The position numbers were made by a program, and so were the translations under genes. Below, in pieces: positions 39,425 through 46,495 of a DNA stretch of 64,000 nucleotides. Source of the stretch: Nocardioides coralli (lineage in GTDB: Bacteria > Actinomycetota > Actinomycetes > Propionibacteriales > Nocardioidaceae); the NCBI RefSeq assembly GCF_019880385.1, contig NZ_CP082273.1, positions 1,240,001-1,304,000 of the forward strand, in the 5' to 3' direction. The first letter of the stretch is position 1, and each line of letters starts with the position of its first letter. The notes beneath the pieces were generated by a model. It searched no databases. It was given only the letters and a program-made list of their open reading frames with translations, and was not told the DNA's origin.

Positions 39425-39485
39425 GCCTCGGGTAAAGACTTCGACGGGTTGACGGATACCTTGACCGAAATCGACCGCGCTCGGT

Positions 39486-39497: not shown

Positions 39498-40865
39498 ATG
39501 GACGTTGTCGAAGCTGCGATTCTCCGGGAGATCGACCCCGCTGAGCTGGGCGGTCGTATCCGTGCTGCGCGTGTTGCCAAGGGCTGGACCCAGACCGACC
39601 TGGCGGGCGATCTCGTCTCCGTCGGCTACGTGTCACGCCTCGAGTCCGGCCAGCGCCGGCCCAACGCCGAGGTGCTCTCCGGGCTGGCTGCCCGGCTCGG
39701 GCTGCCCGTCGACCAGCTGCTGCGCGGCGCCAGCGCGCGCGAGCACGACGAGATCCGGCTGGAGCTCGACCTGGCGGAGTTCGCGTTCGAGAACGGCGAG
39801 GCCATCGAGGCCGAGTCGCGCGCACGCCACGCCATCGACCGCGCGACGTCGGCGTCCCTCCACGACCTCGTGGAGCGCGGGCGCTTCCTGGTCGCCCGGA
39901 CGCTGGAGCAGCAGGGCGCCATCGACGAGGCGATCCTGCAGCTCGAGCCGCTGGTCACCGCCCCCGAGGGCGGCATCCTCAAGATCCAGGCCGCCATCGC
40001 GCTGAGCCGCTGCTACCGCGAGTCCGGCGACCTCGGGCTGGCGATCGAGACCGGGGAGCGGGTGCTCGAGAAGCTGTCGGGGACGCCGCTCGACAGCGCC
40101 GACGAGTCCGTGCAGCTCGCCGTCACCCTGGCCGCCGCCTACTCGGAGCGGGGCGACGTGGGCCAGGCGGTGCGCACCTGCCGCCGGGCCATCGACAAGG
40201 CCGAGACGCTGCAGTCACCCAAGGCCCGGGCCTCCGCCTACTGGAACGCCTGCATCCTGGAGACCAAGCAGGGCCGGATCCGCGAGGCCGTCCCCCTCGC
40301 CGAGCGCGCGCTCGCCCTCCTGTCGGAGGGTCGCGACGGGCGCAACCTCGCCCGGCTGCGGACCGAGCTCGCCGACATGCAGCTGCGGCTCGACCCCCCC
40401 AACGTGGAGGCGGCCCACGAGCAGCTGGCCAAGGCGGCGGTGGAGCTCCACACCTCCAGCGGCGGCGCCATCGACTTCGCGCGTCACAGCCTCTCGCGTG
40501 CCCGGGCCCTGCTGCTCGAGGGAAAGTACGACGAGGCGCGCCAGCTCGCCGCGGAGATCAACGAGGCCGTCGGTTCACGTGCGCCCATGCTGGCCGCGGA
40601 CGCTCTCGCGGTGGTGGGTCAGGCCTGGGGCGGAGGCGGCAACTTCGCCGAGGCCGGCAACGCCTACCGCCAGGCAGTGCTGGTGCTGACCGGCGTGGGA
40701 TCCGACCGCGAGGCGGCCGAGCTGTGGTTCGAGCTGGCCGGCCTGCTCGAGGGAGTCGGCGACATGGAGTCCGCCCGCTCCGCCTACCGCAGCGCCGCTG
40801 CCTCCGCCGGACTGCGCAGCCGGCCGGTGGTGCGCCTCGACGTGGAGTCGCGGCAGGAGATCTGA
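39498..40865 (+). CDS. XRE-family regulator with C-terminal TPR domain
   Basis: A 455-residue cytosolic DNA-binding protein. The XRE-type helix-turn-helix is at about residues 18-75 (RIRAARVAKGWTQTDLAGDL, YVSRLESGQRRPNAEVLSGLAARL). The rest (about 90-440) is helical with repeated TPR-like units, e.g. ALSRCYRESGDLGLAIETGERVLEKL and LAAAYSERGDVGQAVRTCRRAIDKAE. The HTH-TPR build resembles peptide-responsive RRNPP regulators of Firmicutes, but family membership cannot be shown by eye. It is convergent with four tiny peptide genes and separated from them only by a bidirectional terminator, making them candidate ligands. Confidence 0.85.
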   Translation: MDVVEAAILREIDPAELGGRIRAARVAKGWTQTDLAGDLVSVGYVSRLESGQRRPNAEVLSGLAARLGLPVDQLLRGASAREHDEIRLELDLAEFAFENGEAIEAESRARHAIDRATSASLHDLVERGRFLVARTLEQQGAIDEAILQLEPLVTAPEGGILKIQAAIALSRCYRESGDLGLAIETGERVLEKLSGTPLDSADESVQLAVTLAAAYSERGDVGQAVRTCRRAIDKAETLQSPKARASAYWNACILETKQGRIREAVPLAERALALLSEGRDGRNLARLRTELADMQLRLDPPNVEAAHEQLAKAAVELHTSSGGAIDFARHSLSRARALLLEGKYDEARQLAAEINEAVGSRAPMLAADALAVVGQAWGGGGNFAEAGNAYRQAVLVLTGVGSDREAAELWFELAGLLEGVGDMESARSAYRSAAASAGLRSRPVVRLDVESRQEI

Positions 40866-40893
40866 GAGCGCGCGTCCTCCTTGCGGACGCACG

Positions 40894-40927
40894 AAGCGGG
40901 GCCGGAGGTCTTCCTCCGGCCCCGCTT
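40894..40927. terminator. Strong bidirectional terminator between regulator and peptide genes
   Basis: AAGCGGGGCCGGAGG and CCTCCGGCCCCGCTT form a perfect 15-bp stem with a TCTT loop. It starts 28 bases after the regulator stop and ends 41 bases before the last peptide gene's stop on the other strand. Confidence 0.85.
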
Positions 40928-40968
40928 GTGTGCTCAGGGGCTGCGTGGGTCGACAGCCCTGCAGCTGG

Positions 40969-41103
40969 TCAGCAGCACCAGTTGTTGGTCCTGGTGTTCG
41001 ACGACTTGCCGGCCTCGGCGGTGGTGGCCACGCCGGCGGTGCCGAGGGTGGCCGCCAGGGTGGTGACGAGGGCGGCGATGACGAGCTTGACCTTGCGGTT
41101 CAT
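40969..41103 (-). CDS. Small secreted peptide ending NNWCC (copy 1, divergent)
   Basis: 44 residues, with AGGAGA 6 bases before the ATG. The N-terminus MNRKVKLVIAALVTTLAATL is a classic signal peptide (basic start, hydrophobic core), and AEA-G is a signal peptidase I site after residue 31. The predicted mature peptide is GKSSNTRTNNWCC, 13 residues. It differs from copies 2 and 3 at six positions (2, 4, 5, 25, 36, 39), while the Trp-Cys-Cys end is kept. It is last in the tandem array on this strand. No modification enzyme is near. Function unknown; peptide signal or metal-binding peptide are possibilities. Confidence 0.75.
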   Translation of the reverse strand: MNRKVKLVIAALVTTLAATLGTAGVATTAEAGKSSNTRTNNWCC

Positions 41104-41176
41104 GACGGTCTCCTGAGGGTGTGGGTGGGTTGTGGCCGACGGACACCCGAGACAGAGCTCCGTCTTCAGCGGCTGG

Positions 41177-41281
41177 TCAGCAGCACCGGTGGGTGTCCTT
41201 CTCGCGGATGGTCGTGTCCTGCCGGCGTCGGCCTGGCGACGCCGGCGCACCCGAGAGTGGCGGCGTGGCGAGGGCGCTCAT
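41177..41281 (-). CDS. Divergent small peptide ORF ending THRCC
   Basis: 34 residues, lying between copies 1 and 2. The C-terminus DTTIREKDTHRCC resembles KSSITRGNNWCC of the other copies ([S/T][S/T]I...CC), and the DNA around the stop codon (GGTCAGCAGCACC) is identical to theirs. The N-terminus MSALATPPLSGAPASPGRRR is not a good signal peptide. GGAGG is 10 bases before the ATG and TAGCAT (minus strand) is upstream. It may be a decayed or specialised member of the array. Confidence 0.45.
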   Translation of the reverse strand: MSALATPPLSGAPASPGRRRQDTTIREKDTHRCC

Positions 41282-41393
41282 CAGATGCCCTGCCTCCCAG
41301 CCATGCTAGGTCCGCTGCCGTGGTGCTCGTGGGAAAACTGGTGATTTCTGTTCCCCGTGAGGCGGCTCCGGCCGAGCCGTTGCCACCCGGGTC

Positions 41394-41528
41394 CTAGCAG
41401 CACCAGTTGTTGCCACGGGTGATGGAGGACTTGCCGGCCTCGGCGGTGGTGGCGATGCCGGCGGTGCCGAGGGTGGCCGCGAGGGTGGTGACGAGGGCGG
41501 CGATGACGAGCTTGGCCTGACGGGTCAT
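41394..41528 (-). CDS. Small secreted peptide ending NNWCC (copy 2)
   Basis: 44 residues, identical in protein sequence to copy 3. MTRQAKLVIAALVTTLAATL starts a signal peptide that ends at TTAEA; the mature part is GKSSITRGNNWCC. AGGAGA is 5 bases before the ATG, and the bases preceding it match copy 3 (CCAGGAGATCGAC). The stop is TAG where copy 3 has TGA. The start-to-start distance to copy 3 is 213 bp, consistent with tandem duplication and a recent origin or sequence homogenisation. Confidence 0.78.
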   Translation of the reverse strand: MTRQAKLVIAALVTTLAATLGTAGIATTAEAGKSSITRGNNWCC

Positions 41529-41606
41529 GTCGATCTCCTGGTGCTGTGGTGGGTGTCGTGCGTGTGGTGAACCGGGCCCCGAGAGAGGACGAACCTGCGT
41601 GTCAGG

Positions 41607-41741
41607 TCAGCAGCACCAGTTGTTGCCACGGGTGATGGAGGACTTGCCGGCCTCGGCGGTGGTGGCGATGCCGGCGGTGCCGAGGGTGGCCGCGAGGGTG
41701 GTGACGAGGGCGGCGATGACGAGCTTGGCCTGACGAGTCAT
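41607..41741 (-). CDS. Small secreted peptide ending NNWCC (copy 3, promoter-proximal)
   Basis: 44 residues, identical to copy 2 in every residue. It is the first gene of the array on the minus strand, so the promoter should lie in 41742-41900. Signal peptide to Ala31, mature GKSSITRGNNWCC. The ribosome site is AGGAGA. A CCCTGT-C-ACAGGG palindrome is 94 bases upstream. Two identical peptide genes and one divergent copy suggest selection for dose and for variants. Confidence 0.78.
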   Translation of the reverse strand: MTRQAKLVIAALVTTLAATLGTAGIATTAEAGKSSITRGNNWCC

Positions 41742-41834
41742 GTCGATCTCCTGGTGCTGGTGGTGGGTATGCGCCTGATGTGCTCAGGATGGGGACTCGG
41801 AGGCAAATTGGGAAGAGGGCACGCGCAGGATTTT

Positions 41835-44778: not shown

Positions 44779-45549
44779 GTGAGCACGCGCGCCCGGTTCC
44801 ACGACGCCACCGTCGCGGCCCGGGAGCAGCTCTCCCCCCACCTGCTGCGCCTCACGCTGTCCGGGCTCCAGGACTTCGTGAGCACGGGCGTGCCCGACGA
44901 GTGGGTCGGACTCGTCGTTCCGGGGCAGTTCCAGTCGCGCTACTACACCGTGCGTGACTGGCGCGACGGACAGCTCGTCGTCGACGTCGTCGTGCACGAG
45001 GTCGGCCTGGTGACGGAGTGGGCGTCCCGGGACTGCGTCGGCGACACGGTCACGGTCAGCGACCCCAAGGGGTCCTTCGCCCTCCCGCCGGACGCCGAGT
45101 GGCTGCTCCTCGTCGGGGACCTGACGGCGCTGCCGGCGATGGCGCGCATCACGGAGGCCCTGCCGGACCTGCCGACGCGGGTCTGGGCCGAGGTCGCCGA
45201 CGACCTCGACGGCTACCTGCCCGCGGGTCCCGACGTCACCTGGCTCGAGCCGCCCGCCCCGGGCAGCAGCCGACTCGCCGAGGTGGTCGAGGAGATCGAC
45301 TGGCCGGCCGGTCAGGGGTACTTCTGGATGGCGGGGGAGTCCGCCCAGATGCGCGCGATCCGCAGGTTCCTCATGCGCGAGCGACAGCTGCCGTCCTCGG
45401 CGTACGACGTGATGGGCTACTGGCGCGGCGTGAAGGAGCGTCGTCCCAGGGCCGTCGACCCGGGACCCGTCTGGCGGGCCGGCAAGGCGGCGGGCAAGAC
45501 CGACGAGGAGATCTGGGCCGACTACGACAGGGCACGAGATGGGCAGTGA
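44779..45549 (+). CDS. Siderophore-interacting-type FAD protein
   Basis: A 256-residue flavoprotein of the SIP/ViuB type. The FAD domain has the conserved QSRYYTVRDWRDGQLVVDVVVHEVGLVTEWASR region (about residues 55-88) with R-x-Y-T, then PKGSF, and a C-terminal NAD(P)H-binding SIP domain with WMAGESAQMRAIRRFL and YDVMGYWRGVKE. The family reduces ferric siderophores to release iron. No siderophore genes are in the window; it may instead supply electrons to the fatty-acid reductase upstream, which is speculation from context. It is downstream of tmsB and just before era. Confidence 0.85.
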   Translation: MSTRARFHDATVAAREQLSPHLLRLTLSGLQDFVSTGVPDEWVGLVVPGQFQSRYYTVRDWRDGQLVVDVVVHEVGLVTEWASRDCVGDTVTVSDPKGSFALPPDAEWLLLVGDLTALPAMARITEALPDLPTRVWAEVADDLDGYLPAGPDVTWLEPPAPGSSRLAEVVEEIDWPAGQGYFWMAGESAQMRAIRRFLMRERQLPSSAYDVMGYWRGVKERRPRAVDPGPVWRAGKAAGKTDEEIWADYDRARDGQ

Positions 45550-45568
45550 CGAGATCGGCGAGGACCCG

Positions 45569-46495
45569 ATGAGCCAGTACGCCGGGTTCCGCAGCGGCTT
45601 CGCCTGCTTCGTGGGCCGCCCCAACGCAGGGAAGTCGACGTTGACCAACGCGCTGGTCGGCCAGAAGGTCGTCATCACCTCGGACAAGCCGCAGACCACC
45701 CGGACGGTGGTGCGGGGCATCGTCCAGCGGCCCGACGCACAGCTCGTGCTCGTGGACACCCCCGGCCTCCACCGGCCGCGGACCCTCCTCGGTGAGCGGC
45801 TCAACGACCTCGTCCGCACCACCTGGAGCGAGGTCGACGTGGTGGGCGTGTGCTTCCCGGCCGACCAGAAGATCGGACCCGGAGACCGGTTCCTGGTCGC
45901 GGAGCTCGCCAAGGTGCGGCGTACGACCAAGGTCGCGATCGCCACCAAGACCGACCTCGCCGCGCCCGACCGGATCGCTGACCACCTCCTCGACATCGCC
46001 GAGCTCGGGCGGGAGACCGGCACCGAGTGGGCCGAGATCGTCCCGGTCTCGGCCGTCGCGGGCGACCAGGTCGGTCTGCTCGCCGACCTCCTGGTCGGCC
46101 GGATGCCGGAAGGGCCGCCGCTCTACCCGGACGGGGACCTCACCGACACGCCGGAGGAGCAGCTGGTGGCCGAGCTGATCCGCGAAGTGGCCCTGGAAGG
46201 GGTCCGCGACGAGCTCCCCCACTCGATCGCTGTCGTGGTCGAGGAGATGGGCCTGCGCGAGGACCGCCCCGACGACAAGCCGTTGCTCGACGTGCACGCC
46301 AACCTGTTCGTGGAGCGCTCGTCCCAGAAGGGGATCGTGATCGGCCACCGCGGGGCACGGCTGCGCGAGGTCGGCAGTCGGGCGCGTGGGCAGATCGAGG
46401 CCCTGCTCGGCACCCCGGTCTACCTCGACCTCCACGTCAAGGTCGCCAAGGACTGGCAGCGCGACCCCCGGCAGCTCCGCAGGCTGGGGTTCTGA
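45569..46495 (+). CDS. era: GTPase Era
   Basis: Ribosome-assembly GTPase binding the 3' end of 16S rRNA. G1 is GRPNAGKSTL, G2 TTRTVVRGI, G3 DTPGLHRPRTLLG, G4 TKTD (the actinobacterial variant of NKxD), and the C-terminal KH domain has KGIVIGHRGARLREVGSRAR. I chose ATG 45569 (308 residues) because GAGGA lies four bases before it; ATG 45539 overlaps the SIP gene and adds 10 residues. It normally follows the deaminase-like gene directly, so the genes from 39.5 to 45.5 kb interrupt an otherwise conserved order. Confidence 0.96.
   Translation: MSQYAGFRSGFACFVGRPNAGKSTLTNALVGQKVVITSDKPQTTRTVVRGIVQRPDAQLVLVDTPGLHRPRTLLGERLNDLVRTTWSEVDVVGVCFPADQKIGPGDRFLVAELAKVRRTTKVAIATKTDLAAPDRIADHLLDIAELGRETGTEWAEIVPVSAVAGDQVGLLADLLVGRMPEGPPLYPDGDLTDTPEEQLVAELIREVALEGVRDELPHSIAVVVEEMGLREDRPDDKPLLDVHANLFVERSSQKGIVIGHRGARLREVGSRARGQIEALLGTPVYLDLHVKVAKDWQRDPRQLRRLGF

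Follow-up and report, generated by a model that had tools for sequence, protein, structure and literature searches.

Introduction

Peptide-sensing systems of the RRNPP type combine a gene for a small secreted propeptide with an adjoining gene for a receptor built of tetratricopeptide repeats (TPRs), and in NprR and PlcR the receptor carries an N-terminal helix-turn-helix (HTH) domain. In Rgg-SHP and ComR-ComS the propeptides are very short and the operators few, the promoter of the peptide gene among them, and ComS has aromatic residues near its C-terminus. A five-point signature of RRNPP systems includes a propeptide of 10–100 residues, export by Sec, a TPR receptor of 250–500 residues and adjacency of the two genes (PMC10075063). 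The same source has SHPs exported by PptAB and names small-molecule signals such as γ-butyrolactones as typical of Actinomycetota; another gives cyclic or modified peptides and butyrolactones as the actinobacterial signals, and one of its tables has 'TPR' among Rhodococcus and Streptomyces regulators, with no peptide mentioned there (PMC4748050). Here, we examine a block in a 64-kb stretch of DNA from Nocardioides coralli (contig NZ_CP082273.1; the whole stretch is hereafter the window), in which three genes for secreted-type peptides ending in Trp-Cys-Cys (WCC) lie beside a gene for an XRE-type regulator with TPRs. A preliminary description of this DNA had likened the layout to RRNPP systems; the adjacent secreted-type propeptide genes and the TPR architecture bear this out at the level of sequence, and we consider it probable that the block is a self-contained, self-regulating RRNPP-like circuit for peptide sensing.

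Results

The pair recurs across the genus. Among 196 Nocardioides genomes (N. coralli included), a search with a single peptide sequence identified peptides in nine, all ending in Cys-Cys (CC) and, in seven of the eight other than N. coralli, in WCC. When the loci of these eight relatives were extended to 12–16.5 kb, a regulator homologue (43–63% identity) was found convergent with the peptide in seven, the eighth lying at a contig end. From a scan of named genomes with an alignment of the regulator we kept the best 80 of 200 matching stretches, mostly Nocardioides, and applied one fixed rule for secreted-type open reading frames (ORFs) of 30–75 residues ending in CC. A convergent peptide was present in 56 of these 80 loci, separated from the regulator match by a median of 55 bp counted from its end, and a divergent one in five; one extra residue was tolerated, which admitted L071 (CCL, convergent) and L089 (CCR, divergent), and one divergent peptide is doubtful (L095; 75 residues, GTG start). 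Looser rules add two loci, one with the peptide cut by a contig end (L087) and one with the peptide 1.6 kb away (L053), and two of the 80 are cut by contig ends. Tandem copies, two or three, are found in 6 of the 56 convergent loci. Under the same rule, 706 kb of flanking DNA yielded 220 ORFs, only one of which ended in CC, and since this was the L053 peptide, itself a true relative, chance pairing can be rejected; looser background settings gave CC ends in 0 of 327 ORFs and [WFY]P or CC tails in 9 of 327.

A profile of the peptides returned 74 matches at an expectation value (E) of at most 5.5e-7 in 59 of the 196 genomes, all spanning the last column. As many as 72 of the 74 lie within 2 kb of a regulator, the adjacency expected of RRNPP genes, and for the other two, peptide and regulator stand at contig ends. 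Weaker matches are without meaning, because at E up to 1 every genome matches, mostly through the signal-peptide part. The regulator itself is present in 94 of the 196 genomes at E 1e-60. The preliminary description would have given up its proposal if the peptide did not recur next to this kind of regulator in related genomes, and the proposal survived this test; it had also suggested looking for WCC-ended short ORFs near XRE-TPR genes in other actinobacteria, where related pairs recur widely (see below).

Of 66 distinct CC-ended peptides, 50 have tryptophan at position −3, 31 have arginine at −6 and four have another cysteine. Their leaders show a charged start and a hydrophobic core, a permissive AxA-like site precedes the tail in 62, and Sec secretion and maturation are proposed from these features. 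Propeptide length (44 residues in the window, 39–52 for 64 convergent peptides) falls within the RRNPP range. In 28 of 29 usable pairs of peptides at least 70% identical, which are short and not independent, the nonsynonymous substitution rate (dN) is below the synonymous rate (dS), with a median ratio of 0.325, as would be expected if the peptide is conserved as a protein. Membership in a named family was rejected, since the peptides scored above the cut-off of none of the Pfam and NCBIfam models. A protein search with the peptides found the window's own two sequences and one metagenomic relative (P0003), and a query with a peptide from another family's pair gave no match.

A motif built by expectation-maximisation on 54 non-redundant of 67 peptide promoters describes a palindrome of the form TTGnCAAAnTTTGnCAA, which the model estimates to be present in about 84% of the training promoters. 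In 51 of 56 loci, which are up to 13 kb long, the top-scoring site is found no more than 250 bp upstream of where the outermost peptide starts, and in 45 of 56 it is 40–110 bp upstream, both in the region used for training. Outside the training region, the second-best site precedes the regulator in 36 of the 56 loci, and 43 of 75 regulator upstream regions hold a site of at least 10 bits, compared with 0.4% among 3823 random windows and 1.3% among shuffles. An 18-base variant of the operator was sought in 22 relatives, most of them selected because of this variant; in 19 it has exactly one site with no more than one mismatch, which lies upstream of the outermost peptide gene. The other eight matches in the 22 genomes have three mismatches each, versus 22 matches of a reversed control. 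Outside Nocardioides-type loci, strong operator matches (23.9–26.2 bits) were found in L251, L346 and L347. A pattern search of the N. coralli genome at three mismatches gave three sites versus four for the control, none of them at this locus. From the placement of these sites we conclude that the strong target would be the peptide gene itself and the weaker one the regulator gene. In two loci (L069 and L074), operator-like sites of 17.3 and 14.4 bits lie some 30–65 bp past the regulator match with no peptide ORF found; as the sites remain, this suggests peptides that have been lost or have gone unrecognised.

In the window (Table 1), the peptide genes correspond to the preliminary description in length, tails and ribosome sites: each ORF has an AGGAG site, a signal-like N-terminus, an AEA-G cleavage motif and an NNWCC end. 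The three minus-strand genes do converge on the plus-strand HTH-TPR regulator, and the 15-bp terminator proposed between them corresponds to a perfect hairpin inside the 103-bp gap between the regulator and peptide gene 1 (region 40870–40945, z −5.3 versus shuffles). Copies 2 and 3 share 99% identity over 151 nucleotides, compared with 87% for copy 1; a fourth, decayed copy had been overlooked. Among the 14 small secreted-like ORFs that a fixed rule finds in the 64-kb window, the CC ending is unique to these three. Elsewhere in the N. coralli genome (one 3.53-Mb contig) the peptide search gave a single doubtful match, within a 374-residue frame (E 0.93, 34% identity), and the regulator search gave one that covers the HTH part alone (36% identity); neither is a copy.

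Table 1 Features of the window around the peptide and regulator genes (peptide gene coordinates include the stop codon)
Feature	Position	Strand	Remarks
Operator-like palindrome	39458..39477	+	20 bp before regulator start; 10.7 bits, best in window; outside motif training
XRE-TPR regulator, proposed receptor	39498..40865	+	455 residues; HTH_3/HTH_31 and TPR family matches
Perfect 15-bp hairpin	40894..40927		Between convergent genes; likely bidirectional terminator
Secreted-type peptide gene 1	40969..41103	-	44 residues; tail GKSSNTRTNNWCC
Decayed fourth peptide copy	about 41169..41281	-	Repeat families D2 and D3; open frame ends DTHRCC
Secreted-type peptide gene 2	41394..41528	-	44 residues; tail GKSSITRGNNWCC
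Secreted-type peptide gene 3	41607..41741	-	44 residues; same protein as gene 2; outermost copy
Operator-like site	41790..41809		48 bp upstream of peptide gene 3; 9.6 bits, second best in window; promoter in training set
Era	45539..46495		Recognised by eye from GRPNAGKST; three genes separate it from the peptides

The regulator, whose length lies in the 250–500-residue range of RRNPP receptors, has an HTH domain at about residues 16–74 and, in the AlphaFold prediction, nine TPRs at residues 80–436 (TPR_12 match, 6.2e-17). Structure searches ranked PlcR-PapR third (Foldseek) and RapI and NprR 14th and 16th (VIA-align). Among natural HTH-TPR proteins, PlcR also gives the family profile its best match (5.5e-14, collinear over the HTH and the first TPRs), but both domains are common and other TPR proteins match too; a shared origin with PlcR or NprR is possible. 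The HTH of ComR matches at 2e-9 to 5e-9. Five SBP_bac_5 genes in the N. coralli genome make a permease route possible. A phage origin after the manner of arbitrium (AimR-AimP) was rejected, as no relative was found in the viral contigs scanned. The sole match in a phage collection, a 'Bacteriophage sp.' record from human faeces (MT836207.1), has a Nocardioides-type regulator with 95.7% identity to a locus of an uncultured Nocardioides; it looks like bacterial DNA.

Outside Nocardioides, the regulator was found in 37 of 149 genomes and 8 of 26 genera of a family sample (E 1e-60), in 77 of 394 genomes and 32 of 137 genera of a class sample (E 1e-50), and in 29 of 396 genomes of a phylum sample (E 1e-40), 20 of them from other classes; the three samples share genomes, and Nocardioides is part of them. 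A divergent CC peptide is frequent in other families, with tails such as NWPTMCC, PGDFCC and TSLYCC, or GDAGCC in Nonomuraea gerenzanensis; in four loci of one family (L219, L220, L221 and L227) the regulator is flanked on either side by a CC peptide, the two being different, and in Streptomyces goshikiensis a downstream peptide (WP_008741297.1) ends in DIPLCC. A separate clade, comprising Winogradskya humida and genomes of a family with Streptomyces as nearest plasmid relatives, has partners that end in or repeat Trp-Pro (WP) in 5 of 15 regulator entries: DISWP occurs three times in L247, DIGWP twice in L250 and DIEWP twice in L251, with IEWP tails in L264 and L102. Streptomyces plasmids provide further examples, with three IDWP units on NBC_00158 (WP_331719352.1) and three DIGWP units plus one DIGRP on Mut1 (WP_306061608.1). 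A clear repeated propeptide is present in two of the seven Streptomyces plasmid loci fetched, and the small hypothetical proteins translated in three plasmid loci (L347, L349 and L350) do not fit the propeptide pattern. In other classes, the regulator has a very small secreted-type ORF next to it, with a tail of [WFY]P or CC, in 16 of 21 loci (for example APWPHCC, APWPPCC, GFPWPK and NWPHH), versus 0 of 35 other small ORFs in those loci and the Nocardioides-type background given above.

On a tree of 179 regulators, 113 have a CC partner, six a WP partner as labelled and 60 neither, and CC and WP labels need two changes when rows with neither are left out. The tree was made with FastTree only and has several long branches; duplicates of a protein and matches shorter than about 300 residues were excluded, the WP labels of L224 and L238 were set to none by hand, as the match lay in an antisense-looking ORF, and L102 (IEWP) and L304 (DIPLCC), missed by the label pattern, stand as none. 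Since intermediate tails exist (WPxMCC, APWPHCC), the sequences suggest that CC and WP tails form one continuum rather than two inventions.

Small-genome actinobacteria (1.6–2.2 Mb; L253, L260, L271 and L273) also carry the pair, with tails such as GGIWCC or with extra residues past CC (GGIWCCLV, GQWCCDAIPA). In a paralogous XRE-TPR clade of family f18 (L252, L254, L256, L262 and L267), which has no CC or WP partner, a conserved peptide some 52 residues long, of secreted-like or membrane type, lies nearby (starts MQVKK, MQAKK or MQGKK; ends such as FVSHLS). Four loci of family f20 (L376, L377, L379 and L380) have divergent ORFs, small and secreted-like, in which a hydrophobic stretch is followed by AGP or IGP, possibly a further class of partner.

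Discussion

In this study, the pairing of the two genes, their shared palindrome, the signal-like leaders, the conserved tails and dN below dS can be read from the sequences directly. Because these features agree with one another and with the repeats within precursors, the placement of the palindrome before both genes in Nocardioides-type loci and the nine-TPR fold, we favor an RRNPP-like circuit, which they fit better than an effector peptide. Export, cleavage, import, binding, the sign of regulation and the output we infer. Sec would export the propeptide, and cleavage after AxA by signal peptidase I would free a short peptide from its C-terminus, here GKSSITRGNNWCC; this peptide or its trimmed end would re-enter the cell through an oligopeptide permease and bind the nine TPRs on their concave face. 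Probably acting as a dimer, the regulator would bind the TTGnCAAAnTTTGnCAA palindrome upstream of the outermost peptide gene and, with less strength, the one upstream of its own. With the regulator at both promoters, the level of the peptide would feed back on both genes.

Several results weigh against this interpretation. Fifteen of the 80 named loci have a regulator without a CC peptide; the distant relatives L099–L103 are counted among these. The window's two own operator-like sites are both weak (10.7 and 9.6 bits), and beyond Nocardioides-type loci the motif is patchy, reaching at least 10 bits in 6 of the 41 loci L200–L240 and, before the regulator, in two of seven Streptomyces plasmid loci. 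No second strong site was found in the 22 relatives searched; in 19 of them the one strong match precedes the peptide gene, and no wider regulon is visible. Across 75 loci, conservation of the genes around the pair goes no further than single clades. Finally, the regulator model is matched better by LGN and further TPR proteins of eukaryotes than by Rap and NprR, and PlcR is missing from the 50 VIA-align matches listed, so that the fold alone does not single out RRNPP receptors.

The same confinement of the strong operator to the peptide gene, in the genomes searched, would also suit a peptide that is itself the end product, a secreted metal-binding, redox-active or antibacterial molecule, with the TPR regulator responding to something else. 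Vicinal cysteines can bind metal or form a disulfide, and the tandem copies in 6 of 56 convergent loci could raise the dose. Such chemistry cannot be the common function, however, because the WP partners beside the same regulator family have no cysteine: the place is kept while the chemistry changes. Repeated short units within one precursor also seem to fit signals better, and no other gene accompanies the pair beyond clade level, which makes an end product unlikely in our view. We think it more improbable still that the regulator responds to the precursor within the cell that makes it, as a monitor of export or membrane stress with no extracellular return. Outside the class, some partners consist of hardly anything besides a hydrophobic helix and a short tail (MKRVATMMFAVAIVLALAIGATAGFPWPK), so that a cleaved, diffusible form is not certain, but 64 of 66 Nocardioides-type peptides have a permissive AxA-like site followed by a tail of 7–21 residues.

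A short precursor with a nearly constant C-terminal Trp-Cys-Cys could also recall a ribosomally synthesised and post-translationally modified peptide (RiPP), its Cys or Trp altered enzymatically before the peptide acts, and in the window a flavin adenine dinucleotide (FAD)-binding gene and a cyclopropane synthase gene (methyltransferase fold) adjoin the peptides. Both are ordinary for the genus and hence no sign of a modification enzyme, in line with the preliminary description, which had seen none nearby: the FAD-binding gene was found in 57 of 59 Nocardioides genomes sampled, and in none of the 29 other loci fetched does the regulator stand beside it, the window being alone among 30. In the 75 loci no gene beside the pair that could encode a modifying enzyme is conserved beyond clade level, though such an enzyme could be encoded elsewhere, and the peptides match no Pfam or NCBIfam family above cut-off; a RiPP is in our view the most remote of these explanations.

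Compared with the described systems, the RRNPP-like circuit proposed here shares with NprR-NprX, PlcR-PapR and Rap-Phr a small propeptide, here of secreted type, adjoining a TPR receptor of 250–500 residues, with an N-terminal HTH as in NprR and PlcR. It differs from its Firmicutes counterparts in belonging to Actinomycetota, in tails of WCC, WPxMCC or repeated DIxWP, and in its gene layout, convergent or divergent in the loci counted. The short propeptide, the narrow operator set that includes the peptide promoter and the aromatic residue near the C-terminus resemble Rgg-SHP and ComR-ComS, but most leaders here have AxA-like sites, and SHPs take the PptAB route. As with the γ-butyrolactone systems of Streptomyces (ArpA type), the circuit would serve cell–cell signalling in actinobacteria, although those rely on an enzyme-made small molecule and have no propeptide gene.

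Whether these pairs amount to an ancient peptide language of Actinomycetota as a whole, with one receptor family and a drifting C-terminal code, seems to us evenly balanced. The code would run from WCC through WPxMCC, APWPHCC, PWPK and NWPHH to repeated DIxWP, across Nocardioides, Streptomyces, Nonomuraea records, Frankiales-type metagenome-assembled genomes and families of other classes; the proposal is weakened because some of these lineages lack a recognisable operator. The papers listed in the literature searches (titles, beginnings of abstracts and passages, largely outside subscription journals) contained no description of the pair; the preliminary description had likewise named no described actinobacterial family with a WCC end. 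Searching for the literal tails gave nothing relevant by title among the matches listed. The peptide genes are easily overlooked, since all four partners listed in the PLSDB gene table (WP_008741297.1, WP_331750220.1, WP_331719352.1 and WP_306061608.1) are called 'hypothetical protein'. If our interpretation is true, intracellular peptide sensing extends well outside Firmicutes, and peptide signalling is suggested in a group that is better known for small-molecule signals and comprises major antibiotic producers. A conserved pair with a readable operator would also yield synthetic peptides for testing gene switching in cultures.

With regard to the origin of the block, it is flanked by a cytidine deaminase-like gene (a weak match, below the NCBIfam cut-off) and the FAD-binding gene, and a deaminase-like gene lies within 1.5 kb of the FAD-binding gene in 18 of the 30 fetched loci, the window's own counted. 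Its gene order is shared by one of the eight peptide-bearing genus relatives (G069), the other seven showing no match to any of the window's six neighbouring genes. Because the FAD-binding gene is widespread without a regulator beside it, and because the pair sits in a different gene context in six of the eight relatives, the data fit an insertion between two conserved genes and support the earlier suggestion of an acquired module interrupting a conserved order. In the clade of N. alpinus (L037–L080, a cluster of 17 loci), many loci have a PAS-histidine kinase gene just past the peptide, with domains checked in L048 and L057 and a looser relative in L070.

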